Of a DNA stretch of 64,000 nt, positions 28,402-64,000 are shown one piece after another. The notes under the pieces were generated by a model, which was given only the letters and a program-made list of their open reading frames with translations, searched no databases and was not told where the DNA came from. Location: NCBI GenBank assembly GCA_018343915.1, contig JABRWF010000007.1:868001-932000 (forward strand), written 5' to 3'. Numbering within the stretch: position 1 is the first letter of the stretch; each line of letters opens with the position of its first letter. Made by a program: the position numbers and the translations under genes. This stretch comes from Agroathelia rolfsii (lineage: Eukaryota > Basidiomycota > Agaricomycetes > Amylocorticiales > Amylocorticiaceae).

Positions 28402-30804
<2,403 letters not shown>

Positions 30805-34009: not shown

Positions 34010-36395
34010 ATGGCTGGTTCAGACTCGGAAGATGACCTCTTCGACTCCGAGGGCGATGTAGAAGAAGAGCTCATGGAGGGCCTGGACGACATCGAGGTCG
34101 AGGAGGGCACCGAGGCCGGCGATGTAATTTGTGCTACCCGCAGTCAACGTCCTGGCCCTTGTTGCTAATTCACTGCTGTTCATTAGCTGCAGTCTGGCTC
34201 TGAAGACACCACTTCAGAGGATGATGATGATGATGACGAAGACGACGACGACGATGAAGATGATGATGTTATGGCGAACAACATTACGCCCGTGAAGACT
34301 GAGGATGTGCCCAAGATCTTGCCGCCAAAGCCTCTGAGCACAACCCAGCCGGCAATCCGTCAGCTCACGCCGCCCATCGAGAGTAAGTAGTATGTAGCAC
34401 CCTTATTTCGTGCTCTCCCAACTATCCTAAAGCATTGTTCCAGAGTCTGAGACTATCATCCCTACCACCGTTGCACGGGAGCCATCCCCTCCCAAACGTC
34501 CACGATCTCCTTCACCAGCTGAGCTTCGTCGACGGGGGCTATTGGCACCCATTGGGGTTGGTTCCCGCACCTACACAGTCGAAGCTATCTGTGCAATACC
34601 CCATCCCACCCCCACGCACGCGCTTGCATCTTCGGCATGCATTACGCATCTATTGACGGGCTCAGATGATGGCTATATTCGAGATTACGATGTCTTTTCC
34701 GCTGTGAATGGCAAGAATTTCCTCACTGCACCACAAAGACACCATACAGGCGTGGTTGAAGGTCTCATGAAGGCTGGACAACTGCGTTCATGGTGGGAGA
34801 ACCCTCCGGCCGCACCAACCAAGGTCGAAGACGACGAGCTTGTAACGTCCCCGGTATACAGCCTGGCATGTCATTCCGACGCGCTCTGGGCTCTGGCTGG
34901 GTCTGATGTGCGTATCTATAATTTTCCTACCGTAATATCGGTTGCTCAAAGCTTGTTTGTTAGGTTGGACATGTGAACCTTTTCACAGTCCGTCACGAAC
35001 CTGGACGGTTCATTCACAGTCTTGCAGGACACCGCGGACCAATATCTGCTTTAGCTATTCAGCACGATGAAAAGGGCTTTTTCAGTGCTGGATGGGATGG
35101 CCTATGCCTGGTAGGCGTCCATCTATTCTAGTATTATCACTGTCTAATCATGATACATGAACCAGCAATGGGACCTCAACACAGGGCAATTTGTGCGCAA
35201 CTTTGTCGCCCACGGCGCCCAGCTTACAGGCGTTGCCGTTCGCCCAATCGCCCCACCTTCCGCATCTATTCTTGCCCCGAATAACCACTCCATACAGGCC
35301 ACGGAACGAGTACAATCTACACAGCCAATGCAAACTGATACACCCCAAGCACCAGAATCGGCAGTAATGGACGTCGACGCCAAGTCTGACGCATCTTACG
35401 ACCCTTTATTCGATGATGACGACGACCCCGCCGCCGCAGCAAACGGAAACGACAAGAAGGGTGGTGCAAGCGATCTTCAGCTCCCCTCTTCGGAATCGAA
35501 GCCGAACATCGTATCACTCGCCATGCCTGGCCAGGGGCAACAACAACCATCTGCAGGACGCGCGGCTATACCGCCTAAAAATGCGCCTCCATTGCTGGAT
35601 CATGATGCCTATTCGACGTTCTCGCCCGATATACTCATGACGAGTGCCGTAGACGGGCAGGTTATCCTATGGGATCGGCGAGTGAATACGCCGGGAAAGG
35701 GGGTAGGCAGGTTGTGGATGAGTGATAAAACTCCTCCCTGGTGTCTTTCTGCACGTCTCTCTTTTCACATATTCCTCTTATCCTCTAACACGTACGCGTC
35801 TACTCTAGGCATGCTGGTCAGCCGACGGCGGTCAGATCTATGCCGGTAGACGTAACGGCACTGTCGACATCTGGGATACACGTCAGATGGGCCAGATGGG
35901 CCCTTCCAACACGCCGACGCTACTCAAGACGCTTCGGAATCCGGCCAGCTCAGGTGTGGTGTCGTGTGTGGTAGCATTTCCGGATTGTCGGCATATTGCT
36001 TGGTATGGTTGCATGCATGTTGTCCATTATATCGTGGTTTATTCATGTCATTATTTCTTGATATTATTATTAGTGCTTCTTCGGATAACATCCGTCTGTG
36101 GAACGCTGCAGAGGCGGGAGAGACGGACAGTGGAGGTATAGGTAGTAAGAGCAGGTCAGGGGCGCAGTTCAAGATTATTCCGGGACATCATGGAGGATAT
36201 GTTTCTCAAATGCGTGCGTTACCTGCCTTTTCCCACTGTTTTAACGAAAACATAAAGAGACTGATGAGGTTTTTGTCTGGGATGATAGTCATCGATCCGG
36301 GCGCACGATTCATGGTCACCGCCAGCAGTAACCGCGGCTGGCATGGTGAATCTACAAAAACTGTATTCATTCATGACATTAAACTTAGCCCTTAA
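34010..36395 (+). CDS. SPT8: SAGA complex WD40 subunit Spt8
   Basis: The N-terminus (ATG 34010) is strongly acidic (DSEDDLFDSEGDVEEELMEG and a long Asp/Glu run), as in yeast Spt8. WD40 blades follow: ITHLLTGSDDGYIRDYDVF, VYSLACHSDALWALAGSDVG, ISALAIQHDEKGFFSAGWDG and LCLQWDLNTGQFVRNFVAHG. A disordered insertion with an acidic patch (about 35330-35600) comes next, then LMTSAVDGQVILWDRR and GRRNGTVDIWDTRQMG. The conserved end is KIIPGHHGGYVSQM, ARFMVTASSNRGWHGESTKT and VFIHDIKLSP. Spt8 links SAGA to TBP and influences start-site selection. Seven or more introns. A broken copy of its last exons lies at 42364-42795. Confidence 0.92.
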
Positions 36396-37120: not shown

Positions 37121-40100
37121 TTATGGCAGATTCCTTTCTTTGTTGGCCATAAGTGCTCGCAAATCCGCACAAATATCTGCCATTTCGTTTTGATAGTTCT
37201 TAGTCCCGCCCAACGCAAACGCAAACATTTCCACTACAGGAATACTGTTAATTAAATATTAACAAGCTAAACGTGAAATAGAGCGAACGTGGCTTCACTA
37301 ATCCAGGGGAAACATCCTCGAATTTTGCGCTGGCAGGTAAGGAGATAATAAGGATTGCCTTCAGAAAAAAATCTCTTATTTATACGCTGTAAGATGCAAA
37401 AAAAAAGACTGTAGGCATACCTTGTCCTGACTCGCACACATGCTCTGCACTTCGGTTTTCACCAGAGAACTTGCATTTGACACAACTACCACAAGAGATA
37501 GCTTTGGCGCATATGGGGAATCGTTTCCAATTAACAACCGAACTATTCGGGGCACATCGAATTATTAGTATGTTTCACGCTAAGAGATCTTATCTGAATT
37601 CCATACTGTAAGGCCAGCTCTGTACTAATTTATTCTCAGAGATTGCGATGGGCATCAAGTTCTTAATCTAGAATAATACGTAACATAAAGTCAATATTGC
37701 ACATGTAGTCAAGACGCACTTGAACTCACTCTTTCGATGATCAGTGGTTTGGAAGTGCAGACAGAACAGCCAATGTAATCAAGTTGAAGGCCACCCGGCA
37801 CTATCGTTTCTTTGATGAAGCCATATTTAGTTAACTCATTCCTAATGTTCAAGACCACATTGTTTTTGAGGCTGCCGCCCAAAGTATTTAAAAATTCTTT
37901 AGCACTGGCGAGAGATGTTTGATTCTGGCCCTGTGTATGACGCCTAATAAGGAATTCAAGTAACTGTTGTGCGTGGCGTGAAAGGGTTGATGGTATCTCG
38001 TCATTATGCTGCCGAGGGGCAGGACCGTCATGTCCTAGCTGGGTCTGTGGTGTAGGAGACTCTGCTATTGAGTGTGAAGGTGTTTCTTTGTCGTCGGGGT
38101 TCTTGGTAGGCGTTTGCGTAAGATCTGGGCGACTAGCAGAGCAACCAATGTAGCGGATCATGCTTGCACCGCCAGCCGTGGTTTCTTCTCGGGTCAAATC
38201 GCGTGATAACAAGCCAAGCCTAGTCATACGAATAAGTTGTTCTGTGAACGAGATCGACTTTTCTTGTAGATGACTGCAGATTTCTTGAAGACTTGTATGA
38301 TCTAGACCTTGAGTGTGACGATCCAGAAGGTATTGTAATAGATGCTTAGTGAGATCACTCATGGTCGGGAGTATTTGGCCTTCATGTTGCTGGCGGTCAA
38401 AGCCATTAACGCATGAAAGAGTACGCGGTATAGCGATTTGGGGTGTCTCTTGGCTATCCTGTGTTTCAACATCTGCCGGACTACAGATACGGCACCCAGT
38501 GTATCGTAGCCATACAGAATCGACATCAAGCTCAATCTCGTTCTCCCCAGACCTTTCATCGTGTACTAAATCATGTTCCATTAGTTCGTGCCAAGAAGAA
38601 AACAGGTATCCGAATGTAGCAGGCTGGCCCACGCTTTTGAGGTGCGTTTGGACATCGCGTAGGATCGTCTTATTTTCATTCGTAATATGGCGTGCGATTA
38701 GGTACTGAAGCAGGCATTTGGCCGTGCTTGATAGCCTAGATGTCCTCGAGAAACAATGTACCCCATATGGAAGTTCTTCGGGATCGGAAAGAAAAGCACT
38801 TCTTACTTCCATTAAGGGTCCTTGCTCTTGCGTATGCGAGACACGATCTGGAGCTTCCGTAGCTTCAGGATGAGAGGTTTCAGGCTCATCGGCCACCCCA
38901 CTGGCATGTACGGCATCCTTTTCTTCCTCTATCAATAGCAAGTTACAAGCTGCTGCCTCTTGCGGAATGTAGACAACGAAACTTCTGTTATCAACAAATT
39001 TCGTGGATATTGAAAAACCACAAGTCACCGCATCTTGCACGACTTTATTGAGAAGTGTTTCATCGAAGATGAACCCTCGCAATGCAAAATACATGCGGAC
39101 CTCATGTGTCGAAGTTTCGTTCTGGCCCTGAGCCGCCTTTTGCGCAAGATAGCGCACTAAGGGAATGGTCTGGTATGGTAGAGCCGGGACAGGGGCATTT
39201 GGGCTTGGATTAACTGAGGTAGATTGCAGAGCTTTAGCTGGCAACTTCTCAAAGCCTTCCATCATCCCCGATGACCCGACAGCGGGGCCCTGACTAACGT
39301 CAACCGTCCATGATAATTGTGAAGGGTAAGGGGAAGAAGGCCTAGATGCACTGGAGAGTCTCTTGTTATGCCCAGAATCCGTCGTTGATATCATGGATAC
39401 TGCGTCTTCGAGGTTTCGAACGGCCAATATGGACTGACCTCCGTCATGAGTGATCCGTTGTCGAGAATGCACGATAATATACCCTTGGCCGAGAGGTAGG
39501 ATGTCTGGTTTGGTGCTTGACCGTGAAGGGCCGTAATATACCGCTGCAGTCGAGGATGGATCGGGGATACGTGCACAGAGAGCACTGGGAGAGAAAAGAA
39601 TTGCTTGGCCAGTGCGAAGTGATATGATCTAGGGGATTTCATTTGAGAAAAAAATTTGCAGTAGGAAAGAAATTAAGCTTACCTTGGACAAAAGCTCATC
39701 CATTGAGGAGTCGGCAGCAGACATATGCTTCGCTAAATGCTGAAGCCATTTTGGAGAGGAAAATCTGTGCGCGATGATGAAAGAACATAACTCTAGGAAC
39801 TTGGCAGGTACGACTGTCGGTTCTTGCGTCGAGATGACGACTCTGGTCCCAAGGTGGCGTTGCTGACGAATAACTGATAGCAAGGATTCTGTGAGACGCG
39901 ATCCGCCACCGTTTTCCGATAGGTACTGTTTATGATAACATCAGGAATGATATATAGTATTGTTCATATATAAAAGGTAAAACCTTATGTGCCTCATCAA
40001 GAACTAAATATCTCCGTGTAAGACCAATTATTTATAGGTTACCCACGTAAAGACCTACCGACGATCTTCCCAGATGCACTAGTGTTGGCCTCAATAAAGA

Positions 40101-41352
40101 GGCCAAGTATGATATCAAAGAAGCCACACGCAGATATAGAATCCATATATGGAGATGAAAGGCTGGAAAATATTAAAATACAAGCTCTAGTAATTAGAAG
40201 TAAATCTACGCACTCAATAATCGTTAAATGGCCCTTCTTGAAATAATTGGAGATCCGATTTTGCGAGTTGCCACCCGCAAGGCAAGAGTCCAAGAGAGCC
40301 AGACGAATATTTAGCATGGCTTTTTGGCTCGGGTTAAATTTCTGCTCAGAAAGCTTGCTGCGAAAGTTATCGTAGTCGAATGTATCCTCTGAGTCCATGG
40401 ATCGTAAAATAGCCATGATGGCCTCCATATACAGTGGCATTTCTGATGGAATTGTAAGAGTTTACTAATCAATGAGACTCGTCGTAATGCTTACGAGTGC
40501 CATCGTCGACTTTCATCATAGCCAAAAGACGTTCCCCGCTGATGTCCTCGGCCGCAAAGTGCAGTGGCCGGACTTTCACATGCGGCAGATCTTGATAAAC
40601 ACGAGTCATAGAACGTAAGGATGAAGGTCTACGAATAAATCAAAAAACAAGGTACTGTATGTGCTGAAGAGGCTTACAACACAAGCACTGTTACTTCTGG
40701 TGCTTGGGCACCACCGCCTCTTGAAGCATGAAGCGAGGAGAGATAGGCAGCTTCGCATGGTTGAGCGCTTGCACTACCTGCTGCCGAATCAAAATGAAAC
40801 CTGAATGGTATCCGGTAGGTTAATCATCCCAAGAAGTGCTTTCTTGACAAACGTACAAGATCCCACTAAGTGGCTCGGGGAGCGTGCCAAGACGTGAGTC
40901 CGTTATCAGACAACTCTCGAGCAACACCGACGTCGAATGGCTCTTCCCAGACCCCTGAATCCAGTTATCAGCTATAAGGCTATAATGGAACAACATAATG
41001 GTTGAGCCTCAACAAAACCTACCTGAACTCCGCAGACAACCGCACTAAATGGCGCATTCGTATTCACATACACACACGGATTGATCACGTTCGACGCCTC
41101 CCCTGATACGCCCAATCTCTGGCTCAACAAGCGCCCATAGACGGCCTTCTGTGGAAAACTGGTCGACCCTAGGACATCGAAAGCGTCCTCTGTGAAGATG
41201 GGCGCTGTTCTGACGCTATGGTCGCCCACGTGTTGATCATTGTCATCGTCACCATTCTCTTCTAGAATATCGTCATCGATAAGTTCGTAGTCTGGGATAT
41301 GATCTCGTCTGCGTCCACGGCTGGTAAAGTTAGATGATGGCAGAAGAGACAT
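37121..41352 (-). CDS. ATPase array copy A: HerA/FtsK-like P-loop ATPase with winged-helix-like repeats
   Basis: Roughly 1,150-1,200 residues from a dozen or more exons. An acidic N-terminus (PDYELIDDDILEE) precedes VYGRLLSQRL and the Walker A motif AVVCGVQGSGKSHSTSVLLE (about residues 104-123, split by an intron after GVQ). Walker B is GKIVVLDEAHKYL, spread over three exons, followed by RHLGTRVVISTQEPTVVP, comparable to the ISTQ-x-P motif of HerA/VirD4-type ATPases. After SRQRITHDGGQSILAVRNL comes a long exon (about 39430-37720) with four modules of about 80 residues. These begin LLQYLIARH / LLQYLLDRH / LLEFLIRRH, and the last three end YTGCRIC, YIGCSAS and YIGCSVC. The C-terminal domain starts IKNLMPIAISENKLVQSWPY and ends with VEMFAFALGGTKNYQNEMAD and DLRALM. 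Stop TAA at 37121. The superfamily is inferred from motifs; the biological role is unknown. Confidence 0.75.
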
Positions 41353-42363
41353 GTTCTAGCGGACAGTTAGTTGTCCTCGATAGGTCTGGGAGGAGAAGAG
41401 AGGTGGATTGTGTGATTGGATCAACTGGTGCATAACATAAATTTGTGGGCGCTTAATTTATGGCGGTGCGGCTGGGATAATCCGGCCAAAGTCCACAATC
41501 ATCGCCATATCTGTAAAGGTGCAGATCCTCCATTTCAGATGTCGTCATTACGTAGAAAGATCCAGGCAAATAATAGTACTGGGCATCTTGAACAAAGCTT
41601 AGACACTAGCAAATAGCAACCTGAGCAAGTCGAACATGGTTGTTCTCATGACTGTTACATCTCCAGCTGATAATCAAACTTCTACTGATTTTTGACAAAT
41701 CAATGATTATTGGCTGGTCGAAGTCGTAATTGAACAAGTGAATAACTCCGATGTCCAAATAGAACGCTCCGCCGCTACTCGGACTGCCTCCATCTCTACA
41801 AATAGACAATAGAGTATCCGAGTCATAGCGTCCGATATGGAGTTGCATATCCATGATGTAAACAAATACTTTAATATACTACATTCTTGAATTTGGCTAC
41901 TTCAACTTCAAACATAAATTGGTACAGCGTATATAGGCATAGACCCTGTGACTTTTCCGAGTCGACAGAGACAGGAGCTGCAAAAACTGAGAAAGCCAGA
42001 CGTTCACTAAAACTAAACGTTGAAATCCATAAAGTTTTGTTCTACATGCCTAAATAGAATATGTAACGTATGCTGTACCAACTTTTGATTAAAGGGAAAC
42101 GGCATAAAAGTGACCGAGATCCAAAAATGAAGGGTATTGGACTGGTAGGTCCAAGGGTAGGAAGGAGTGACCCTGAAGGGGTCACATGATAGGGTTGTAG
42201 AGTCACGTGATAACTTAGTATTTAGGGCCGTGTGGCCACCTCATGTACCTACATCTGCACTTGTACCGTACTACGACGGTTATCCACTTGTGTTAGGTCC
42301 TCTAGGATCCCTTTGGGAGGCCCCAGGGCCTCTCCAGTATTGAAATATATTATAATAATAATG
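41353..42363. other. upstream region of copy A and spacer to copy B block
   Basis: No gene is supported. The first 200 bp resemble the upstream DNA of copies C and D (shared gattgtgtgattggatcaa-type and ggataatccg words). The rest has no recognisable feature apart from a short GTGACCC/GGGTCAC hairpin near 42163. Confidence 0.45.
41505..41537 (-). promoter_or_regulatory. upstream element conserved in the ATPase array (copy A)
   Basis: Plus-strand words ccatatctgtaaaggtgc and agatcctccatttc lie about 155 bp before the start codon of copy A. Similar sequences occur at the matching distance before copies B, C and D. It may be a promoter or 5' UTR element; that role is inferred from conservation and position only. 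Confidence 0.45.
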
Positions 42364-42795
42364 AAGTGTGGTTTCGTGCGTGGTAGCGTTTCCAGATTGT
42401 CGACATATGATCGTAGTTGTACGCATTGCTTGTCAAATCGTGGTTAGTTTAACATTGCTTATTGATAGTGTTTCTTCGGGTAACATCCGTCTGTGGAACG
42501 CTGCGGATGCGGGAGAGACGGACGACGGGGTGTAGGTAATAAGAGTCGGTTTGGAGCACAGTTCAAGATTATTCCGGGACATCATGATCATGGAGGATAT
42601 GTTTTTCAAATGCGTAAGTTATCCACATTTCTTTCCCTCCATGATGGTGGAAGCTTCAAGAGACTAATTGGAATACTTTTCTGGGGTAGTTGTCTATCCA
42701 GGAGCACGGTTTATGGTCACCGCCAGCAGTAACCGCGGCTGGCACGGTGAATCGACAGGGACGGTATTTATCCATGATATCAAACTCAGCCCTTG
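42364..42795 (+). pseudogene. broken copy of the 3' end of SPT8
   Basis: This matches the last exons and introns of SPT8 (about 35953-36395) at high identity. Shared segments include catccgtctgtggaacgctg, cacagttcaagattattccggg and accgccagcagtaaccgcgg, and the final sequence cagcccttga. Relative to SPT8 there is a small deletion after gagacggac that shifts the frame into a TAG, an in-frame gatcat insertion, and a three-base loss near 42690. The upstream WD40 region is absent. It is a dead fragment carried along when the neighbouring ATPase gene was duplicated. Confidence 0.92.
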
Positions 42796-42929
42796 AAGCA
42801 ATTGCGAGATATTTCAGCATGCACCTCAAGAGAAGATGTCATTATGGACATATCGGTAATCCACGTAGCCATAAATGTTGTACAATATAGTTAAGAGATT
42901 GAATAACATTTTGTCAAGAAATGATTCTT

Positions 42930-45900
42930 TTAAAGAGCTTTAAAATCTCTATAGACATCTACGATTCGAGCTTGGAAGTCCTGAGTACCGCCCACGGTAA
43001 AAGCTAATATTTCAACTATGGGAATTATCATTAGTAACGATCTAGTCTGCTTAGAATTGAAAAGAGACAAACGCGGCTTAATTAGATGCGGAGAAGCATC
43101 TTCAAACTCTGGTACCATATCAAAACCAAGTTGAAAAAGAGGTATTTCCTTGATGAGGAATATTAATGTTAGATGTACGCAGAGCGTGAATAATAAAACA
43201 CTGAGGCATACCCTGTCTGGATCCCAGCACATCCTCTCTGCATCCTGTATCATATCTGAGGTTTGGGAGAAGAGGACTACAAGAGATAGGATAGGCGCGT
43301 CCTTGGAATGAGATTCGATCGAGGATCCAGCTAATAAGAAGCATTATGGATTGTTGTCCTGATAGGAATTTATTTTATTCTGAGTTCTTACCGTAAGCCC
43401 AGCTTTGAATTAATTGATTCTGGGAAATAGCCATTCTTATCAATTCTTTGATCTGTAAATGAGCCGTTAGTCATATCAGTCTTTTGCTTTTTTATTTTAT
43501 TTCTTTTCTAATAACAAGTTTACCTTATCGGTAAATGATAGCTCGGGCGGCGGCGTATTCTTTTCGGAAGCCGAGTCGGCTTGAGGAGGCTGACCTCGAG
43601 GTATAGGGTATGACGCGCAGATAGAACAACTAGTGTAACAGAGCAAGACAGTCCCAGAGTGTGGCATCTCCTCTCGCACAAAACCTCGTTCGATTAGCTC
43701 ATGCCTTGTTCTCCGCATACCATTCTTCGTGACGGCCACGCCTTGATCGCGCAGAAATGCTTTAACGTCCTCGAGATTTATCTCGTTTTCGCCATTTTTG
43801 TGAGCTTCAATGATATAACTAAGTGCTTGCTTCGCCATATGTTTAAGGGTCGGTGATACTGGATCACCAGGACAATGATCAGTATCAGTAAGGTTTTCAA
43901 ACTGCAGTGCAGGATCCTTGGTAACTGAGGTCCGGAGATTCTCGGTGTTTGAAGTTCGTCGATCAGCGTTCAAGAAGTTGCTAGCAGAGCAGCCGATGTA
44001 ACAGAGTAATGTTGACCCATCAAGAACTTTCATTAGATTGCGTGATAATAAATCCAGCTCAGCCATATTGATCAACGGTTGACTCGAAAGGGCCGCATCG
44101 TATGTTTCTTGTAAATGGTTTTGAATTTGTTGCATACCCACGTGGTCTTCGCCTTTCATGTGCTGATCGGTCAGATACCGCAACATATTCTTGCTGAATT
44201 CATGCATGGTTGGAAGTACCAAGCTATCATGTTGCTTGCGACTGAAACCGTTCGCGCATAGATCAGTATCTGAGATACCAACACCGGCAGATACTTCCTG
44301 ATTATCCTGTATCTCTCGAAGATTCTGTGGCCCCATGCTGCTCTGCATTTCTGCAGTATACGCTGTACGCAAGTCATCTCTGGTGGTTGTTTTCTCTAGC
44401 ATAGACGAAGGCCCGAGCCGATAAAGTGTATCGGCTACGAAGTCATCGGATAACCGTATCTCATGACTGGGCATAGATACTTCTCCTAGGTTTTGGACGG
44501 CAAGTACTGACTGACCTCCATCACAAGTGATCCGTTGGCGAGAACGTACGATTAGATACCCCTGACCGAGCGATACGATGTCCGGTTTGGAACTCGACCT
44601 CGAGGGGCCGTAACATACCGCTACAGTTGTAGATGAATCAGGGATGCGTGCACAGAGGGCGTTGGAAGAGAAAAGGATAGCATGGCCGGTACGAAGTGAT
44701 ATTATCTAACGAATGATGTCGTAAAAATATAATACACCGTATAGTTGACAACACTTAGCTTACCTCAGACAAAAGCTTATCCATAGAAGAGTCAGCAGCA
44801 GAGACATGTTTTGCTAGATATTGAAGCCATTTAGGGGAAGAAAACCTATGTGCAATGATGAAGGAGCAAAGCTCTAAGAACTTGGGAGGGACGACCGTCG
44901 GTTCTTGGGTCGAAATCACGACTCTGATCCCAAGATGGCGCTGCTGACGAATAACTGATAATAGGGCTTCTGTGAGACGCGACCCATCACCATTCTCCGA
45001 TAGATACTGTTCATGATAATATCAGGGATGACATGCATAGGGGCACCGATATATGCCGACGGAAAGCAAACCTTGTGTGCTTCGTCTAGAACTTGAGACC
45101 GCTATGTGAGATCAAGTATTTATAGGTGATTCATGCGAAGTCCTACCAACGATCTTGCCGGATGCACCAGTGTTTGCCTCTATAAAGAGGCCAAGTATGA
45201 TATTGAAAAAGCCGCACGCAGAAGTAGAGTCCATATACGGCGATGAAAGACTGGGCCACTTCAAAAAATTTCCTTCAGAAAGGAGGATACTGCTTACTCG
45301 ACAATGGTTAAATGTCCTTTTTTGAAATAGTTTGATGCCCGATTCCGTGAGTTTCCACCTTCCAGGCACGAGTCTAGCAAAGCCAAGCGAATGTTTAGCA
45401 TGGCTTTCTGGCTAGGATTGAATTTTTGCTCAGAAAGTTTCTGGCGGAAGCTATCGTAGTTAAACGTGTCCTCCGAGTCCATAGACCGCAATACAGCCAT
45501 GATTGCCTCCATGTATAGTGGCATTTCTACCAGGATCGTTATTTTCTTTTAATTGAATTGTTATATTCACTGCTTACGTGTAGCATCGTCAACTTTCATC
45601 ATAGCTAATAGCCGTTCGCCACTGATGTCTTCGGCAGCAAAATGGAGGGGACAAACATTCACTTTCGGCAAACCTTGATAAACTCGAGTCATCGAGCGCA
45701 ACGATGAGGGCCTAGTAGAAACTCAATGACATTCAAGAATATGGGATTAAAAGACCTTACAATACAAGCACTGTTATTTCTGGGGGCTTGGCACCACTAC
45801 CTCTTGAAGCATGAAGCGAAGAGAGATAAGCCGCTTCGCATGGTTGGGCAATGCCATTCCCAGTCGCAGAGTCAAAATGAAAGCTAGCAGATGTTTAATA

Positions 45901-46407
45901 GGCAATCTTGACAAAAGGTGTTGCCTTGAAAAACGCACAGAATACCGCTGAGTGGCTCTGAAAGTGATCCGAGGCGAGGATCAGTCATTAGACAACTCTC
46001 AAGTAGCACTGAAGTTGAGTGACTCTTCCCAGAGCCCTAGTTTCTCAGCATTGGTCAGACCAAACAGTACGGATCGACAGCCATCATACAAGTGAACATG
46101 CCTGTACTCCACAGACTACTGCGCTGAACGGAGCATTCGTGTTGACATAAACACATGGGTAGATAAATTGAGACACATTGGCTGATGCATCAAGTTTCTG
46201 GCTTATCAAGCGTCCATAAACAGCTTTCTCTGGGAAAACGTTTGGACCTAAAGCATTGTAAGCGTCTTCAGTGAAGACAGGTGCCGTTCTGGTGCTATGG
46301 TCTTCTCTTAGCGGATTTTCATTACCGGTGGCTTCTGGATCTCCGTTGTCTATAAGATCGTAATCCGGAATCCTGCGTGCGCTTCGACGAGATGGAAAGA
46401 GGGGCAT
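42930..46407 (-). CDS. ATPase array copy B: shorter paralogue
   Basis: Same exon plan as copy A. The start at 46407 (MPLFPSRRSARRIPDYDLID) is preferred to the in-frame Met at 46449 because it aligns with the other copies. Walker A (GVQ joined to GSGKSHS by splicing), Walker B (VVLDEAHKYLSENG) and LGIRVVISTQEPTVVP are intact. After RQRITCDGGQSVLAVQNLGE the protein is much shorter than its paralogues. It has two winged-helix-like modules (NMLRYLTDQHMKGEDH ... YIGCSAS and ALSYIIEAHKNGENE ... YTSCSIC), lacking the first two found in A, C and D. The C-terminal domain ends VEILAFTVGGTQDFQARIVD and DFKAL, with TAA at 42930. The SPT8 fragment lies 134 bp beyond its stop. Probably functional, since no break was seen. 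Confidence 0.72.
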
Positions 46408-47389
46408 TACAGTGAAGGGGCTGAAAGGCCAAGGGGAAGTCACGAACAACAGAAGAACGTATGAAGTTAAGAATGGTTGTCAGTATCAGTGCAGAGTGCT
46501 GAGCAGACATATTGATAGTAACACACGTTAATAAGAGCCTAAGACGGCTGCCAATGCATGGCAAGCACAATAACCATATATGTGAAAGCGCAGATCTTGT
46601 AATTCTTCCATCACTAACCTGAAACCACTGGCACTCTGGGGTTTTCAACAGAAAAATGTCGTTTCTACCGATCTTTGGATACTTCGGATAAAGGATTTGG
46701 TAAAAAAATATTGTCACGTGACCTACTTTTAGGCCAAAATATGCTCACGTGCTTTCCGCTTTTACCGACCCTTTTACTCAAAGTAAAGTGGTTGGTAGAA
46801 GTATTGGTAGAAACGGGACTTTTCCCATGGAAACTCCGGAGTGCCATGGCATGCGGATCACAACTGAAACTGGAAAGTTACGGAAGCTTTTAAGACTTTA
46901 AAACTTTCTACGGGTTGGAAAAGACTGTCAAGCTGATAGAAATCCAATTGAGCGTTCACACAAACGACAAGTACGTGTACAAGAAAGACGAATACACGAG
47001 GCCTGGCGCGCTTGACGCAGCGGCAAGTTGGTTGCACTCTTCCCAATTAGTAATTCAAACTCAGATAATTGAAGCTTTCAAGCATTTCGAGCATTGCACA
47101 CATGTTGACACAACATGATGTAGGCCAAATTTCGAAGATGAAATACATTTAGTTCAAGATTTCTTGTGGAAAGTAAGCATGCCTTCATTAAGTTACATAG
47201 CATTAGTATTACTGGCCCTCGCAGTCAAGCTTGTCATCCTTAGTAGACCAAGAAAATAAAAGAAAAAATACAATTTCTGAACCGTAACCAAACAATGGCA
47301 AACATACGTCTCATGAAAACGGTGTTTGACGAAATCAAGTATGTTTGTCCAAATAGACTGCACTGCTGCTTGAGAAGGTGAAGTTCTAC
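46408..47389. other. spacer between copies B and C
   Basis: No gene is supported. The upstream element of copy B lies at 46573-46598. A possible small fold-back sits at about 46660-46815 (cgtttctaccgat at one end, attggtagaaac at the other), with no clear target-site duplication. Confidence 0.4.
46573..46598 (-). promoter_or_regulatory. upstream element conserved in the ATPase array (copy B)
   Basis: ccatatatgtgaaagcgc followed by agatcttg on the plus strand, about 166 bp before the start at 46407, resembles the element before copy A. Confidence 0.35.
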
Positions 47390-50300
47390 CTATCTATCAG
47401 TGGTAGGTTGTAAGTCCATGTAAATGTCCTCAATCTCGTTTTGGTAGTTCTGAGTTCCACCGGCCGCAAACGCAAATATCACCACTATAAAAATGCTATT
47501 AGTTGAGGTTTGATTGGACAGTCTATGATATAAAACGAACGTGGCTTGATCAGACTAGGAGAAACATTCTCGAAATTTGCGTTAGCAGACAGGGAAATAA
47601 GATGGATGGCCTGACAAGAATTCGTCTTGTTTAGAGCGGTGAAATATAACATGACTGGGAACATACTCTATCCTTATTCGCACACATGCTCTGGGCTTCT
47701 ATTTTTACAGAAGAGCTCGCATTCGACACAAGCACCACAAGAGCTAGCTTGGGTGCTGATCTAGAATGGCTTCCGATCAATAGTCGAACTATAGGGTTTG
47801 AGGTATGTCAAATCGTTAATATCTTTAAAGCAGAGGGTCGTATCTGGAGTTCATACCATAAGGCCAGCCCTGTATCAATTTGTTCTCGGAAATGGCAATT
47901 AGCATCAATTGTTTGATCTAGGAATGATAGATTAACCCCCATATAGCGTCTCCGTAGTGGACAAGGCAGATTTAAGATTGCTTACCCTATCGTTCATCGC
48001 TGGTTTGGGAACCTGGTTAACTGCTTGAGGGGCGACTTGAGGTGTGGTAGGGAGATCACTTATGTGCGAAGTGATAGACATGATGTCTTGTGACATCGGA
48101 GGAGATTGTGCGTCGTGCGTTGACCTCGTTTCGCAAACGGAGCAGCCAATGTAGCGCATAAGTACGATACCCGGTTGAGGCTTTTCTTCCTTTGTAAGAT
48201 TGTGTTCCTTCAACTCGTCTCTAATTTTATGGCTAAGACCTCTTGGTACAAAGCCTTTAGTGGTAAGCTTTTGCAAATGTTTAATGATGTCTGGGATAAT
48301 TGTTGTGTCTTGTCCGGCTGTATGTCGCTCAATGAGAAATTCAAGTACTTGTTGAGCGAGTACTGAGAGGGTTGTTGGTACTGCGTCACCATGCCATCGG
48401 GCAGCGGGGTTGGCATCACTAGATCGGGATTTAGGTAGTCGAGGTATTGCGAGCGAACTTGGGGGCGTGTCCCAGCCACTGACAGACGATGCGTCCCAGT
48501 CAATGGCAGGCTCGGCAGCCCAATCATTGACAGTCGAATAAGGCGATGCATCCCAGTCAATGACAGGCTCAGCAGCCCAGTCATCGACGGCTGAGACAGA
48601 TGGTAGGGTCGAGTCACTGACAGCCGCTGTATCCCAGCGAGACATTTGCCTACTAGTAGCAACGCTATGGGCAGGTTCGGAACAACCAATGTAATAGAGC
48701 ATAATTGCGCCACTAGCAGTCGTTTCTTCTCGCACGAGATTGCGAGAAATCAAATCCTGCCTCACGGTACGAATACGTCCTTTAGATATCACCTCCGCTG
48801 GATTAAATGTATCCTGTAGATGATTTCGGAGTCGTTGAAGGGCTATCGAGTCTACACCTTTGGTGTGTTGGTCTAGCAAATACTGCAACATGCACTTGCT
48901 TAAGATGTTGTTCATGTTTGAGGGTATCATGCTTTCGTGCTGCTCACGATTGAGACCTTGCGCACAAACATCAACATGCGAGACCTGTGAGGGAGTGATC
49001 TCGGGTTTCTCCGGCATTTCTTGACATTCTTCCGTAGTCTTGACTTCCGAGTGTATCGAATTACAAATTCGACAACCAGTATAATGCAGCCATATGGAGT
49101 CGACATCGAGCGCTAAGTAGTTATCGTCTAGTCTTTCATCTCGGACAAGGTCGTAGTCCATGAGCTCATGCCAAGAGCTGTATAGATTCGAGAATGTACC
49201 AAGTCTACCTCGATCCTTCAGCCGTACCTGTACGTCTTGAAGAATTGTCCTATTTTCGCCCGAAACATGACGTTCAATAAGGTGCTCGAGCATGATTTCA
49301 GCGCTGCTCGATATTCTCAATGGTCTCGAGGTATGACAATGTTCACCGAACGGATGTTCGTTGCTATCGGAGGAAACACTTGTTACTTCCTCTATCTGTT
49401 TTTGCGTCTGGATAATATGTTCTGTGGATGTCGGAGTTTTCACAAGAGAAAATTCATGTTGTTCTGGCGTATCAAATGTATTTATGATCTCCTCTTCATC
49501 GACTAACAGGACGTTACACGGCGCAGATCCTTTTGGAGTATACGCAACATATCCTCTGCTATTAAGTGTTTCCATTGAAATATCAAAACCACAAGACTCC
49601 GCGTCCAGTACGACTTTAGTGAGAAGTGATTCGTCGAAGACAAGCCCTCGCAAAGCAAAGTATTCTTGGATTTCCTTATATGTGGCTCCTTTTGCGCCTT
49701 GAGCCGCCCTCTGCGCAATATAGCGCATGAAAGGAATTGTATGGCGTGGCAAAGCCGGGATAGGAATATTTAGGCTAGGACTGGCGACTCTAGATTTTAG
49801 AGCTTCGGAGGATAGTTTTCCAGCGCTCCCTGCTGTGCTAGATGATCTAGCGGCGGAGATCTGGTTGATACCACTCTTCCATGACAAGTGTGATGAGGAG
49901 GACGAGGAAAGTCTGGTTGCATGGAACAACTTCTCGTTATGCCTATTAGTGGTCGCCGCCATAGATACTATGTCTTCGGGGTTTTGAACGGCCAGTATTG
50001 ACTGACCACCGTCACGAGTGATTCGCTGTCGAGAACGAACAACTAGATACCCTTGGCCGAGAGGCAAGATGTCTGGCTTAGAGCTCGACCGTGAGGGGCC
50101 GTGATATACCGCTGCGGCCGCGGATGGATCGGGGATGCGTGCGCAGAGGGCACTAGGGGAAAAGAGGATAGCTTGACCAGTGCGGAGAGAGATTATCTAT
50201 TCGATACCGTCTGAGAACACGATATACAGTTGTAATAAAAACATCATTAAGCTTACCTTGGACAGAAGTTCATCCATTGAAGAATCAGCAGCAGACATAT

Positions 50301-51922
50301 GCCTTGCCAGATGCTGAAGCCATTTCGGAGAAGAGAACCTATGCGCGATGACGAAAGAACATAGCTCAAGGAACTTGGCAGGTACGACCGTCGGTTCTTG
50401 AGTTGAAATAATGACTCTAGTCCCGAGATGGCGCTGCTGGCGAATAACTGATAATAAGGATTCCGTAAGACGCGACCCGCCGCCATTTTCCGATAGGTAC
50501 TGCTCGTGATAATATCAGGGATGATACACATAAAAATGCCTATCTATGGAGAAGACAAACTTTGTGTGCTTCGTCGAGAACTAGAAATCGCCATATGAGA
50601 TCAAATATTTATAGCTAAATCATACGAAGACTTACCAACAATTTTCCCGGATGTACCAGTATTCGTCTCAATAAAAAGGCCAAGTATGATATCAAAGAAG
50701 CCGCACGCAGACGTGGAGTCCATATATGGTGATGAAAGACTAGATGCTATTGAATTCCAAGCTCTAGTAATTAGAACCAGATATACGTACTCAATGATCG
50801 TTAAATGTCCTTTCTTGAAATAATTAGAAATCCGATTCTGTGAGTTACCGCCCGCTAGGCAGGAGTCCAATAGAGCCAAACGTATATTTAGCATCGCTTT
50901 TTGACTCGGATTGAACTTCTGCTCGGAAAGCTTGCTGCGGAAATTTTCGTAGTCGAAAGTATCTTCCGAGTCCATAGATCGTAGAATGGCCATAATGGCC
51001 TCCATATACAATGGCATTTCTGATGGAATTGTAAGAGTTTACTAATCAATGAGACTCGTCGTAATGCTTACGAGTGCCATCGTCGACTTTCATCATAGCC
51101 AGAAGACGTTCACCACTGATGTCCTCTGCCGCAAAATGCAATGGGCGGACTTTCACATGCGGTAAGTCTCGATAAACACGAGTCATAGAACGCAAGGATG
51201 AAGGTCTCGTGAGAAGTCAGGAAAGAAGATGGACTAAAAATAAGTTTGTCTCACAATACTAGAACTGTGACTTCTGGTGCTTTGGCACTACCCCCTCTTG
51301 AAGCATGAAGTGAGGACAGATATGCAGCTTCACATGGTTGAGCGCTTGCACTGCCTGCTGCTGAATCGAAATGAAACCTAAATCGTGTTATTTGGTAAGC
51401 TCTCGCCTCAAGAAGTGTTCTCTTGGAAAACTTACAAGATTCCACTGAGTGGCTCGGGAAGTGTACCGAGACGTGGGTCTGTTATTAGACAACTCTCCAG
51501 TAACACCGATGTAGAATGACTCTTTCCAGACCCCTGGTCCAGTATCAAATACCATTAAGCTATGTTCAAATAACAAAACGGCTCATCCTCAAACTTACCT
51601 GAACACCGCAAACGACCGCACTGAATGGCGCATTCGTGTTCACATACAAACATGGATTGATCGCATTAGACGCTTCTCCCGATGCACCCAGTCTCTGATT
51701 CAGTAAGCGTCCATAAACGGCCTTCTGGGGGAAATTGGTTGGCCCTAGGACATCAAAAGTGTCCTCCGTGAAAATAGGCGCCGTTCTGACGCTATGGTCG
51801 CCCATATATTGATCGTTGTCGTCACCATTTTCTTCTTGGATATCATCATCGATAAGTTCATAGTCCGGGATATATTGTCTGTGTCCACGGCCATTTAAGT
51901 TGGAAAGTGACAAAAAGGACAT
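47390..51922 (-). CDS. ATPase array copy C: HerA/FtsK-like P-loop ATPase with winged-helix-like repeats
   Basis: The longest paralogue. The start at 51922 gives MSFLSLSNLNGRGHRQYIPD. Walker A (GVQ spliced to GSGKSHSTSVLLES), Walker B (KIVVLDEAHK by splicing) and RVIISTQEPTVVP are intact. The large C-terminal exon (about 50160-47980) carries four winged-helix-like modules; the last three end YTGCRIC, YIGCSEP and YIGCSVC. A short acidic/aromatic repeat (DDWAAEPVIDWDAS, NDWAAEPAIDWDAS) lies between modules three and four and is absent from the other copies. The C-terminal domain ends VVIFAFAAGGTQNYQNEIED and MDLQPTTDR, with TAG at 47390. Its 5' half is nearly identical to copy D in places and to copy A in others, as expected after gene conversion. 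Confidence 0.75.
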
Positions 51923-52089
51923 TTCAGTCCTGGCAGATCGTTATCCTGAAGGTTTGAGAGGCCGACTCGGAGTCAGAGAGAAGAAGAGGTGTAGATTGTG
52001 TGAAAGGATCGATTGGTGTGTAACATGAGTTATGGGGGAGGGGGGCGGTGCTGGGGTAATCCGATTAAAGTCCACACTAGACAGTTATT

Positions 52090-52120
52090 GCTATATCTGT
52101 AAAGCCGCAGATATTCTATT
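52090..52120 (-). promoter_or_regulatory. upstream element conserved in the ATPase array (copy C)
   Basis: gctatatctgtaaagccgc followed by agatattctatt lies about 168 bp before the start codon of copy C, matching the element before copy A in sequence and distance. Confidence 0.4.
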
Positions 52121-52602
52121 TCCGTCATGATCATTGCATGCAACAAGAACTGCGCGACCACAACTCGGTGCCTTGAATAAAGATCAGACAAACAAGTAAT
52201 AGCAGGAAGTCAAACTTTGAACGATAAGCTTCAGTGGCCCATATATATATCATGCTCACTTCTCAGCTGATAATCAAGCTTCGACAGATTTTTGACGAAT
52301 GAATATGAGCGAATATTGGGTGATGGAAGTCACGATCAGATTTGAACAAGGAAAATGATGCAAATATTAATAATGGTTCTAACGTCCTACCAGAATATTC
52401 CGTCGCTGCACGGAGTCACAGACCGACTTCATCTCTACAAACAGACAACAATTCATCATAGCATCCAATACACTCAATCCAATTCAAGCTCGAATTACCA
52501 GTGTTTGTTTTCAAGTAAATTCGCCCAGAGAGGAACTAATCGAGAATCGTTTCCCGGAAGATTGGACTGCTAAGAACCTCCGCATGACGAATACCATGCT
52601 TT

Positions 52603-52948
52603 GTTGGTGGCGGTGTTGCACGCGGTTTCGTCGCTCACGCATAGTCACACACCACCGTGTTGTCGGAGTGTATTATTTTTAGGCTCCGCAGGGCTTGGAA
52701 ACTTGAATGAAATCATCCCCCCTTGAGCGTGACAACAGGGTGACTACGCCTGTATTTGGATGATTTTGCTCCCACACTCTAAATCTCAACTTCCTTCTAG
52801 TTGAAGTATTTTTCTTTTGACAGTAATCAATTTCAAGAGGCATTTTAAATCAAGACCCCGAAGTATAGAGCACTTAGATTCAAATTGCGTTTGTGTATAA
52901 CAGTTAAACACTCATCGCGACAAAACCGTGTGCAACACCGCCACCGAC
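52603..52948. repeat. inverted repeat with 32 bp arms
   Basis: The left arm 52603-52634 (gttggtggcggtgttgca, then cgcggtttcgtcgc) is inverted at 52917-52948 with four mismatches. The 280 bp between the arms has no coding capacity. It may be a small non-autonomous element, or it may form a stem if transcribed. No clear target-site duplication was found. Confidence 0.75.
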
Positions 52949-53194
52949 GAAACGAGGGTAGGGCACTGCAGGGTATGACCACGAACGCGTGTACAATGGA
53001 TTTGGACACAAAAGGTATCAACGTTACCCCCGAATTAGTAATCACGCTCAGAAGTTGAAAGTCGGAGTACTAAGTGTCAGTGGCTGACAAATAATATGAT
53101 GGATATGCATGTTTCTAAAGAAAAAAAAAAGTAAATGCATTGGTGTGGTCAATCTTGTATCATAGAGCCACGTATTACTCAAAATATTACCTTA

Positions 53195-56100
53195 CTACGA
53201 AGACGGATTTTTCACTCCTGCAGTGAGAGCGCGCAAATCTGTGCAAATTGCCGCGACATCATTCTGGTAGGTCTGGCTACCGCCAACCGCAAAGGCAAAT
53301 ATTTCCACTGGAAAAACATTGATATTAATGAGTATTATACCTACTCAATACAAGGTGAGACGAACCTGGTTGCACTAAGCTTGGAGAGACGTCCGCATAT
53401 TTTGCGCTGGCAGGCAGGCAAATAAGAAGGATACCCTTGGAACAAATAATATTAGACACGATCACCACAATTTTCAAGACGGAAAACATACTCTATGTTT
53501 ATCCGAGCACATGCTCTGTGCATCTTTCTTCACTAGAGGCCTTGCATTTGACATAACAACCACAAGAGATAGTTTAGGCGCGTGTTTGGAGTGGTTTTCA
53601 ACTAATGACCGGACTGTTTAAGGCACGTTTAATGGTCAATATTTTTCATTACATAGGGGCCTCCTAGTATACATACCGTATGGCCAGCTCTGTACTAATT
53701 TATTCTCGGATATGGCGACTGCCATTAGGTTCCTAATCTAAGAAAAATGCGTAAACGCTGGCCCAGCGTATCTATGTAAGAAATAAATATTGGAGCTTGC
53801 TTACCCTGTCAGCGATCGGCAATTTAGGTGTTGAATTCCTTGGTGGAGAACTAAATTGGGGTGTGGTAGGACGATCGCTCATATGCGATGTAACGGACAA
53901 GGCGTCTTGTGACAGGGATGGAGGAGGTTGTGGATCGGAAACTGGCTTCGATTCGCAGACCGAGCAACCGATATAACGTATTAGGACGATGCCCGGTCTA
54001 GGTGCTTCTTCTTGTATAAGACCATATTTGCTCAATTCGTCTCTAATCATACGGCTGAGAGTTTCCAGAACAGATTGCGCTGAGATAAGATTTTCCAAAT
54101 TTTCATCAAAGTCTGGAACCGTTATGGTATCTTGTCCAGCTGTATGCCGTTCAATCAAGAACTTAAGTATTCGTCGAGCGAGTGGTGTAAGGCTTGACGG
54201 TGTAGTGACATCATGCGACCGGGGCACAACGTTGGTATTATTTGATTGGGATTGGGGTAGAGTGACCGCAGCGACTGAACTTGAGGGTATATTTGTGCTC
54301 TGATCAAATAATCGCACAGTGGTAACGCCGCGGGCAGACTCGGAACAGCCAATGTAGCAGAGCATGATAGAATCATCATCAGCAGTTTCCTCATGCACGA
54401 GATTACGCGACATGAGATCCCTCCTGGCAATACGTATACGCGATGGGGGTATCACCTCTGCTGGATCGAATGTTTCCTGTAGATGACTTCTGACTTCCTG
54501 AAGTGTTGTCAAGTTTACGCCTGTAGCGTGCCGGTCCAGCAGGTATTGCAGCATATGCCTGCTTATATCATCCATGTCGGGGGGTATTATGCGATCATGT
54601 TGCTCGCGAGCGCGACCTTCCGCACAGACATCAACACGAGGAGCCGACGAGAGAGCGGCGTCTGGCATCTGTTGACGTTTTTCTATCTTGGATTCCACCG
54701 AGCCACATATTCGACAACCAACATAATGAAGCCATATGGAGTCGACGTCAAGCGCCAAGTAATTGTCGTCCCGTCTCTCATCTCGGACAAGACCATAGTC
54801 CATGAGCTCGTGCCAAGAGCTGTATAGGTTCGAAAATGTACTAGGCTTGCCCCGATTTCTAAGCCGTACTTGAACATCTGGTAGATTTGTCCTGTCTTCG
54901 CCTGCGATATGTCGTTCAATGAGGTACTCGAGCATCCCTTCAGCGCTGCTCGATATTCCCAATGACATAGAATAACGACAATGTTCGCCGTACGGATGTT
55001 GGTTACCGTCAGAGGAAAAGATGCCCCACTCATCCTTCTCTTGCTCCTGGATCTGTGTTACGTGATCCGTAGCCATGGAGGCTTCCGGAAGAGAAGATTG
55101 ATGCTCATCGGACGTATCAAGCGTATTGAAACTTTCCTCTTCGTCGAAGAGCAGTGCGTTACAAGGCGCAGCTTCTTGTGGAATGTAAATGATCAATTTT
55201 CTACCGTCAACGAGTTTGATGGAAATGGAAAAACCGCAAGAGACTGCATCCTGCATGACTTTAATGAAGAGCGTTTCGTCGAAGATGAGCCCTTGCATGG
55301 CAAAATATTGTTGGACTTCCTTCGCCGCAGTTTCGTTGTAACCTTGAGCCGCCCTCTGCGCAAGATAACGCACGAAGGGAATCGTCTGACTTGGAAAAGA
55401 CGGAGGAGGGACTTTTGGCTTAGAACCAACGGCTGCAGATCTTGATGACGGTTTGTCAGCACCCTTTGTTTGCCTAGCTGACTCCACGGCATGTGCACAA
55501 TCAGCGTCGCTTTTCCAGACAGTTTGTGGAGAAGGGGGCAAAGACGAATGAGATGAGCGAGGAGAAGGTGGGCTAGAGGTACTGGAAAGTTTGTTGCTAT
55601 GTCCGGAATCCGTGGTCGCTATCATAGAAACTACGTCTTCCAGGTGTTGAACGGCCAATATCGACTGACCGCCGTCATGAGTGATACGTTGACGAGAACG
55701 GACGATCAGGTATCCTTGGCCGAGGGGTAGAATATCTGGCTTGGTGCTCGATCGCGAGGGACCGTAATATACCGCTGCAGTCTCGGATTGGTCACGTATG
55801 CGTGCGCAGAGGGCACTAGGAGAGAAAAGGATAGCCTGGCCAGTGCGCAGTGATATAATCTATGAAATATAGTATGAGAACATGATATACAGTACATGAG
55901 GTACATCATTAAGTCTACCTTTGACAAAAGCTCATCCATCGAAGAATCAGCGGCTGACATGTGCTTCGCAAGATGCTGAAGCCATTTCGGGGAGGAAAAT
56001 CTGTGCGCGATAATGAAGGAGCATAGCTCCAGAAACTTGGCGGGTACGACCGTCGGTTCTTGAGTTGAAATAATGACTCTAGTCCCGAGATGGCGCTGCT

Positions 56101-57599
56101 GGCGAATAACTGATAATAGGGATTCCGTAAGACGCGACCCGCCGCCATTTTCCGATAGGTACTGCTCGTGATAACATCAGGGATGATACATATAGAAATG
56201 CTATTTGTGGTAAGGCAGACCTTGTGTGCTTCATCGAGAACTAGAGATTGCCGTATGAGATCAAGTATTGATAAGCCACTCATGGAGAGACGTACCAACG
56301 ATCTTTCCGGATGCACCGGTGTTCGTCTCAATAAAGAGGCCGAGTATGATATCAAAGAAGCCGCACGCAGACGTGGAATCCATATATGGTGATGAAAGAC
56401 TAGACGGTATTGAATTCCAAGCTCTAGTAACTAGAACCAGATATACGTACTCAATGATCGTTAAATGTCCTTTCTTGAAATAATTAGAAATCCGATTCTG
56501 CGAGTTACCGCCCGCTAGGCAGGAGTCCAATAGAGCCAAACGTATATTTAGCATCGCCTTTTGACTCGGATTAAACTTCTGTTCAGAAAGCTTGCTGCGG
56601 AAATTGTCGTAGTCGAAAGTATCTTCCGAGTCCATAGATCGTAGAATGGCCATAATGGCCTCCATATACAATGGCATTTCTGATGGAATGATTAGGATTT
56701 GTTCGGTAATGTAATGAAGATCCTAATGATGCTCACGAGTGCCATCATCCACTTTCATCATAGCCAGAAGACGTTCACCACTGATATCCTCTGCCGCAAA
56801 ATGCAATGGGCGGACTTTCACATGCGGTAGGTCTTGATAGACACGAGTCATCGAGCGCAGCGATGATGGTCTACAAAGAACTTAGGCGACCACATGAAGC
56901 ATGTATTGAAGAGCCTTACAGTACTAGCACTGTTACTTCTGGAGCTTGAGCACCAGCCCCTCTTGAAGCATGAAGTGAGGACAGATATGCAGCTTCACAT
57001 GGTTGAGCGCTTGCACTGCCTGCTGCTGAATCGAAATGAAACCTGGATCGTGTTAGTTGGTAAGCTCTCGCCTCAAGAAGTGTTCTCTTGGAAAACTTAC
57101 AAGATTCCGCTGAGTGGCTCGGGAAGTGTACCGAGACGTGGGTCTGTTATCAGACAACTCTCCAGTAACACCGATGTAGAATGACTCTTTCCAGACCCCT
57201 GGTCCAGTATCAAATACCATTAAGCTATGTTCAAACAACAAAACGGCTCATCCTCAAACTTACCTGAACACCGCAAACGACCGCACTGAATGGCGCATTC
57301 GTGTTCACATACAGACATGGATTGATCGCATTAGACGCCTCTCCCGATGCACCCAGTCTCTGGCTCAGCAAGCGTCCATAGACAGCCTTTTGGGGGAAAT
57401 TGGCCGACCCTAGGACATCATAAGCGTCCTCCGTGAGGATGGGCGCCGTTCTGACGCTATGGTCGCCCACGTGTTGATCGTCGTTATTGCCATCGCCTTT
57501 CTCTTCTGGAAAGACACTGTCATCGATAAGCTCGTAGTCCGGAATATGTCGTCTGTGTTCGCGGTTGGTTGAGTTGGACGAGGATGGCAAGAGGGACAT
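53195..57599 (-). CDS. ATPase array copy D: HerA/FtsK-like P-loop ATPase with winged-helix-like repeats
   Basis: The start at 57599 gives MSLLPSSSNSTNREHRRHIP. Walker A (AVVCGVQ, then GSGKSHS after an intron), Walker B (SGKIV, then VLDEAHK) and RVIISTQEPTVVP are all present. The large exon (about 55750-53810) has a Ser/Pro-rich linker, then four modules. The first begins IPFVRYLAQRAAQGYNETAA; the other three end YVGCRIC, YIGCSES and YIGCSVC. The C-terminal domain is easiest to read here: IRNLMAVAISENKLVQSWPY, VRSLVENHSKHAPKLSLVVV, MSNARPLVKKDAQSMCSDKH, then GILLICLPASAKYADVSPSL, IFAFAVGGSQTYQNDVAAIC and TDLRALTAG, ending at TAG 53195. All splice sites examined are canonical. Long identical blocks with copy C mark it as the most recent relative of that gene. 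Confidence 0.76.
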
Positions 57600-63720: not shown

Positions 63721-64000
63721 GAAAACTGACGAAAACCTCTCAAAATATGCTATTATAAGTGAAGTAAGATAAACTCACAATAACTAGGGCTAAAAACACA
63801 CAGATTGCTGTACACGACCCAGTTTTGATAGTTGTCCGTAGTAAACAAGAGATCATGGTATCAGAACTGCGCAAAACACTCTTTCTGCGCAGGAAGTAGA
63901 CTATTAGGACAGTCACAATACCGAGATCACACATACTTGTCTGATTAACAGGTAAAAATATGAAATAAAATAAAATAAAACATTAGCAGGCAAAGCAGGA
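63467..64000 (-). CDS. DUF6534-type membrane protein, C-terminal part (runs off the right edge)
   Basis: Two C-terminal exons are inside the window. The first gives DLGIVTVLIVYFLRRKS and MISCLLRTTIKTGSCTAICV, corresponding to the family's late membrane segments. After an intron (about 63690-63765) the last exon gives LLDKDSLAISDSVLSWAMQF and SLSHIYTISVLYTLLGRQRL, with the -xIYTxSVLxTLLGRQRLR- ending found in this group. Stop TAA at 63467. The N-terminal membrane segments lie beyond base 64000. A broken copy of the last exon sits just downstream. Function unknown. Confidence 0.65.

Follow-up and report, generated by a model that had tools for sequence, protein, structure and literature searches.

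The closest described relatives of the proteins considered here are the eukaryotic members of clade 6 of the HerA/FtsK ATPases. In the account that describes them, clade-6 HerA/FtsK domains occur in "novel genomic elements" that are widespread in fungi and some other eukaryotes, and they are characterised by a four-helix insert, a core-end signature hxhxxRxRhsxDsGx[ST] and one or two C-terminal winged helix-turn-helix (wHTH) domains, while most members additionally carry an N-terminal extension derived from a wHTH (PMC10853773, NAR 2024). For the eukaryotic proteins a function such as mobility, exerted through an unknown partner, was proposed in the same account (PMC10853773). Here we describe an array of four genes of this kind that spans positions 37121..57599, on the minus strand, of a window of 64,000 nucleotides (positions 868001-932000 of contig C7) from the Agroathelia rolfsii assembly, which comprises 37.67 Mb in 8 contigs. 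A first-pass annotation made from the sequence alone had implied that a eukaryotic HerA/FtsK ATPase with wHTH modules was new, a view that must be given up, since clade 6 had already been published (PMC10853773) and relatives are common in fungi. Its remark that this is not a characterised system may nevertheless hold, since no functional study or other experimental characterisation of the fungal proteins appeared among the papers listed in literature searches.

The four array genes and their motor domain

By the features tested, namely the core-end signature, the four-helix insert and the C-terminal winged helices, the array belongs to clade 6, and it is nearly certain that its proteins are members of this eukaryotic HerA/FtsK family. 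The four adjacent genes on one strand that the first-pass annotation had reported run from the ATG of copy 4 at 57599 to the stop codon of copy 1 at 37121, and thirteen-exon models of all of them were derived from open frames, splice sites and copy-to-copy alignment:

37121..41352, minus strand: copy 1, 13 exons, 1181 aa, 12 GT-AG introns; motor, four winged-helix modules and C-terminal domain
42930..46407, minus strand: copy 2, 13 exons, 926 aa; motor, two modules (m3- and m4-like) and C-terminal domain
47390..51922, minus strand: copy 3, 13 exons, 1277 aa; motor, four modules and C-terminal domain, with a tryptophan-rich linker between modules 3 and 4
53195..57599, minus strand: copy 4, 13 exons, 1235 aa; motor, four modules and C-terminal domain

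None of the copies contains an internal stop and 47 of the 48 introns are GT-AG, the exception being intron 1 of copy 2 (GC-AG), so that the earlier impression of four intact genes is upheld. A protein of 926 aa that differs from copy 2 at 6 of 926 residues is encoded on a contig of 3116 bases (P0001, source 'lgn'); since copy 2 occupies 3478 genomic bases between its start and stop codons, more than the contig holds, the latter would most simply represent spliced RNA from another strain, and on that most simple view it would lend transcript support to all 12 junctions of copy 2, those of the GC-AG intron and of the short C-terminal exons among them. Among the four copies such support is limited to copy 2.

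The motifs singled out earlier, GVQGSGKS (Walker A), VVLDEAHK (Walker B) and ISTQEPTVVP, are each present in all four copies, as is the core-end signature. The codons of GVQGSGKS are interrupted by intron 1, and VVLDEAHK, its first residue excepted, lies on a 20-nt exon 7. Walker B is followed by an arginine/glutamine motif (RQQRH..RV.ISTQEPT in the copies). Two alignments were compiled, one of P0001 with 60 relatives and six exon-9 rows (A1) and one of 22 rows (A4); in the latter the key motor columns are invariant or at least 90% conserved, the RxQRH and TQxP residues being invariant. The N-terminus is acidic, as had been stated, with 10-13 acidic against 3-6 basic residues among the first 50 of each copy.

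The first-pass annotation had placed the proteins among HerA/FtsK-like ATPases with winged-helix-like modules and had named structure prediction as a check of the P-loop class. The predicted structure of P0001, the copy-2 variant, bears this out, as its motor adopts a HerA-type P-loop fold. Four helices of this model (residues 207-214, 224-237, 244-252 and 258-275) would, on our reading of the topology, correspond to the published four-helix insert of clade 6, and residues 1-55 form short elements only, where most clade-6 members have their wHTH-derived extension. In Pfam-A, copy 4 gave only sub-threshold matches to Zot (15.3 against 20.3 bits) and DUF87 (12.5 against 23.2 bits), other motor matches (AAA and similar) were likewise sub-threshold in copy 4 and nine relatives, and PF01935 matched nowhere in the genome.

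The count of homologues, also suggested at the outset, came to 124 proteins at E<=0.001, a family common in fungi; among the 120 relatives listed, every row with a named organism is a fungus. Many relatives from Ascomycota have long N-terminal parts and end at the core, others have tails of ~150-400 residues, and most of those from Agaricomycetes are tailed, while relatives from Ceratobasidium and Rhizoctonia have an FHA domain ahead of the motor and no tail. Among prokaryotic sequences, a scan turned up 359 stretches with the pattern and a single confirmed relative, namely a HerA-like ATPase from a Gordonia metagenome-assembled genome with 31% identity over 106 residues, which is too little for placement. 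A quick tree was built from 51 fungal cores, comprising 39 of the 120 relatives, seven array genes from both haplotypes (see below) and five other genomic copies, the latter roughly chained from tblastn pieces. The seven array genes group with P0001 in one clade (support 100), and a second clade (support 82) unites nine Phanerochaete proteins, a topology which indicates that expansion was lineage-specific or that copies were homogenised within each lineage. Four Phanerochaete sordida records with close locus numbers on one contig suggest that the genes are clustered there too.

Tails, second haplotype and selection

The modules of about 80 residues, two to four per protein in the first-pass annotation, number two in copy 2 and four in each of copies 1, 3 and 4, and the shared C-terminal domain is indeed common to all four copies. 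The parts were placed as follows:

55662..57599, minus strand: copy 4, N-terminal region and motor, encoded by exons 1-8 and the beginning of exon 9, up to the RQRITHDGGQS signature (residue 495)
55143..55400, minus strand: copy 4 module 1, the most divergent module type
54699..54962, minus strand: copy 4 module 2
54330..54590, minus strand: copy 4 module 3
53949..54206, minus strand: copy 4 module 4, modelled as a winged helix
53195..53737, minus strand: copy 4 C-terminal domain (exons 10-13)
37751..39184, minus strand: copy 1 modules 1-4 with linkers
43611..44222, minus strand: copy 2 modules (43974-44222 and 43611-43862)
48127..49755, minus strand: copy 3 modules 1-4 with linkers

A winged-helix fold is predicted for the one module that was modelled, module 4 of copy 4, and structure comparison finds it to resemble, among others, the winged helices of the origin recognition complex (ORC). 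An OST-HTH/LOTUS identity, hinted at by the modules of relatives, may still apply, but it had no Pfam support and no such chain appeared among the structural matches listed. As for the C-terminal domain, none of seven members matched Pfam, the best E value against PDB sequences was 0.33, the tail of P0001 retrieved P0001 alone in one protein-database search, and the predicted model is poor.

Test pieces of contigs C6 and C7 are homologous at 85-93% identity, those of C1 and C2 at 93%, and a piece of C3 matched C3 alone, from which we infer that the assembly is probably partly phased and contains two haplotypes. The array is bounded by the same flanking sequence on both but differs in order, reading 1, 2, 3, 4 on C7 and, on C6, the remnant of copy 2 followed by copies 3, 1 and 4. 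All three C6 genes are open throughout, with GT-AG borders at each of their 36 introns; the transferred model of C6 copy 1 ends just short of a stop codon. The C6 remnant of copy 2 (C6:929130-930433) still has exons 10-13, preceded by the last part of exon 9, and lacks, through an internal deletion, the part matching window positions 43650-46514. On C7, copy 1 is flanked by an SPT8-like gene and its partial duplicate:

34431-36395: SPT8-like (SAGA WD40) gene, left of the array, with a Pfam SPT8 match of neighbouring frames
42366..42794, plus strand: duplicated SPT8-like fragment of 440 bp, from 35954-36393, 75% identical over 452 columns

Copy 1 has no sharp junctions, and copy 2 is missing through an internal deletion, a picture that suggests turnover of the array through deletions and ectopic exchange.

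Between alleles, the ratio of nonsynonymous to synonymous divergence (dN/dS) is 0.03-0.07 in the motor, 0.13-0.27 in the C-terminal domain, 0.20-0.24 in the pooled modules (0.10-0.55 in single modules) and 0.44-0.61 in the linkers. Since frames and splice sites are kept in the three counterparts on the second haplotype and purifying selection on the motor is strong, the array is not a chance arrangement of open frames. Synonymous divergence (dS), followed in overlapping sliding windows rather than by a formal conversion test, is 0.13-0.26 between copies 3 and 4 across motor columns 70-380, compared with 0.50-0.88 between copy 3 and its own allele, but from column 490 on the relation is reversed, with 0.19-0.50 between copy 3 and its allele and 0.69-2.04 between copies 3 and 4. 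The simplest explanation for this pattern would be gene conversion between the motors of copies 3 and 4. Copy 1 shows no exchange pattern; for copy 2, the dS windows covered only the comparison with copy 1, and the analysis by region those with copies 1 and 4.

Outside the array, further family members form a two-gene group on both haplotypes (C7 312-318 kb, C6 360-365 kb), and a single divergent copy lies at C3:3961-3962 kb, on a long branch with FHA-type and other relatives in the quick tree. Within the window, the sequence at positions 63057-63956 belongs to a repeat family that recurs at C7:935 kb and at C6:951-965 kb. At positions 29410-30801 there is a frame resembling poly(A)-binding proteins, with RRM and MLLE matches, and the region in which it lies has 93% identity to its C6 counterpart.

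Function and alternative explanations

On balance we favour, if by a modest degree of confidence, the view that the array is a lineage-specific tandem expansion of clade-6 HerA/FtsK proteins, each a DNA-translocating ring with winged-helix docking and perhaps with a function in conflict. By analogy with HerA and DndH, the motor would assemble as a ring and use ATP to move along, or to pump, double-stranded DNA. The winged-helix array would dock the motor onto DNA or onto a DNA-bound partner and, more speculatively, the tails might select the target that is engaged. Purifying selection, together with exchange between copies, would keep the motor alike in all of them, while the modules and linkers would evolve more quickly, which is expected if the tails choose the target. 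A role in intracellular conflict, in which foreign or mobile DNA is recognised, blocked or silenced, is put forward tentatively, because many of the close structural matches are anti-phage ATPases and because the locus shows copy turnover; as no nuclease is fused to the motor, the outcome would depend on a partner. It is a speculative and rather doubtful extension of this idea that the array works in genome defence like a receptor family, with a conversion-kept DNA pump and private winged-helix arrays that choose the DNA, so that individuals would differ in repertoire. If true, it would amount to a eukaryotic use of the bacterial HerA/DndH-type motor against invaders, without a nuclease of its own.

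Several observations weigh against the favoured view and its extensions. Positive selection was not found in the tails, no region exceeding a dN/dS of 1 in the allele comparison, and tryptophan-rich linkers are restricted to copy 3 and some relatives. Antiphage-HerA profiles match weakly, far under the curated cut-off, and a kinship with MAD8 of the MADS system, raised by a PADLOC mad8 match, was dropped as this profile matches promiscuously.

Duplication of a housekeeping ATPase of DNA repair, replication or chromosome segregation is a serious contender, albeit one to which we give the smaller part of our belief. Archaeal HerA acts in DNA end processing and FHA domains are known from DNA-damage signalling; the FHA domains of the Ceratobasidium and Rhizoctonia relatives, the ORC-like appearance of the modelled module, the very strong constraint on the motor and the wide distribution of the family in fungi would all fit such a role. 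It is less easily reconciled with accessory parts that vary between lineages, with the separate Phanerochaete clade, which points to separate expansion or homogenisation, or with the reduction of one copy to a remnant on one haplotype, and neither the protein nor the scanned frames showed a recognisable NurA-like nuclease. That the genes belong to selfish or mobile elements, their proteins serving the element's own mobility as proposed for the family (PMC10853773), is rather unlikely. The eukaryotic members are called 'novel genomic elements' with mobility as the example in that source, copy 1 occupies differing positions on the two haplotypes with the duplicated SPT8 fragment alongside on one, and one Pyrenophora tritici-repentis record (P0060), which could reflect either a genuine fusion or the merging of gene models, joins the HerA-like motor to C2H2 zinc fingers and to DUF3723, reported as prevalent in Starship giant transposons (PMC12134995). 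However, the array sits between the same flanks on both haplotypes, the loss of copy 2 on C6 left exons 10-13 rather than an empty site, and the SPT8 duplicates are just 75% identical beside copy 1 junctions that lack sharpness. Moreover, the genes are interrupted by 12 introns each, the few window frames scanned contained no recognisable transposase, and the hallmarks of a transposon (precise ends, target duplication, empty site) were not found in the one haplotype pair compared.

Still less probable is a signalling-type regulatory NTPase that uses ATP hydrolysis as a switch without moving DNA. Variable parts fused to one conserved NTPase recall the plan of STAND proteins, but fold and motifs are those of HerA/FtsK and the invariance of the RxQRH and TQxP motor residues across the 22 aligned rows argues against it. 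The least probable of the alternatives is an RNA-silencing factor that binds Argonaute through linker tryptophans. The linker between modules 3 and 4 of copy 3 (window 48385-48666) has 6 W in 70 residues, a density matched by 0 of 500 shuffles, and the copy 3 tail contains 8 WD/DW repeats, which are reminiscent of Argonaute-hook motifs; four Phanerochaete relatives (P0003, P0004, P0005 and P0011) have 4 to 8 GW/WG in their tails. Yet copies 1, 2 and 4 lack such a linker, GW/WG counts are 0 or 1 in five other Phanerochaete relatives, and clustering in excess of tail composition, seen in copy 3 and, weakly, in P0011 (26/500 shuffles), is not seen in P0003 (467/500) or P0005 (84/500).

The locus raises the question of what the HerA motor serves to pump or to bind in fungi, and whether winged-helix tails set the target.

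Comparison with known systems

Archaeal HerA (PDB 4d2i) shares 16% identity with the array proteins, which differ from it by their long wHTH tail and by having no recognised NurA. The HerA/FtsK domain of DndH (PDB 7es4) likewise provides a comparison for the motor, but the array proteins are eukaryotic, have a wHTH array attached and lack recognised restriction or SWI2/SNF2-like parts, no nuclease or Dnd domain having been matched by Pfam in copy 4 or nine relatives. From the bacterial antiphage ATPases SIR2-HerA and DUF4297-HerA they differ in lacking a SIR2 or nuclease domain, and partner genes were not found in the few window frames scanned; nor were linked nuclease or Dnd genes recognised in that scan, which covered 10 single frames.

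The likeness is closest to eukaryotic clade 6, with which, by the available part of its description (PMC10853773), the array shares the motor, the four-helix insert, the core-end signature, the C-terminal winged helices and the presence in Basidiomycota. The wHTH-derived N-terminal extension of clade 6 is not evident in the array proteins, and that part of the account does not mention tandem arrays, haplotype differences or motor exchange. Where one or two C-terminal wHTH domains were published (PMC10853773), three of the copies have four, and the array adds a C-terminal domain that was matched, in one search, only by the same gene of another strain. What this locus newly contributes is a set of family members in which the winged helices number as many as four and are joined by an additional C-terminal domain, a second-haplotype array that is reordered and includes one remnant copy, and an apparent exchange between the motors of copies 3 and 4 while their tails diverge.
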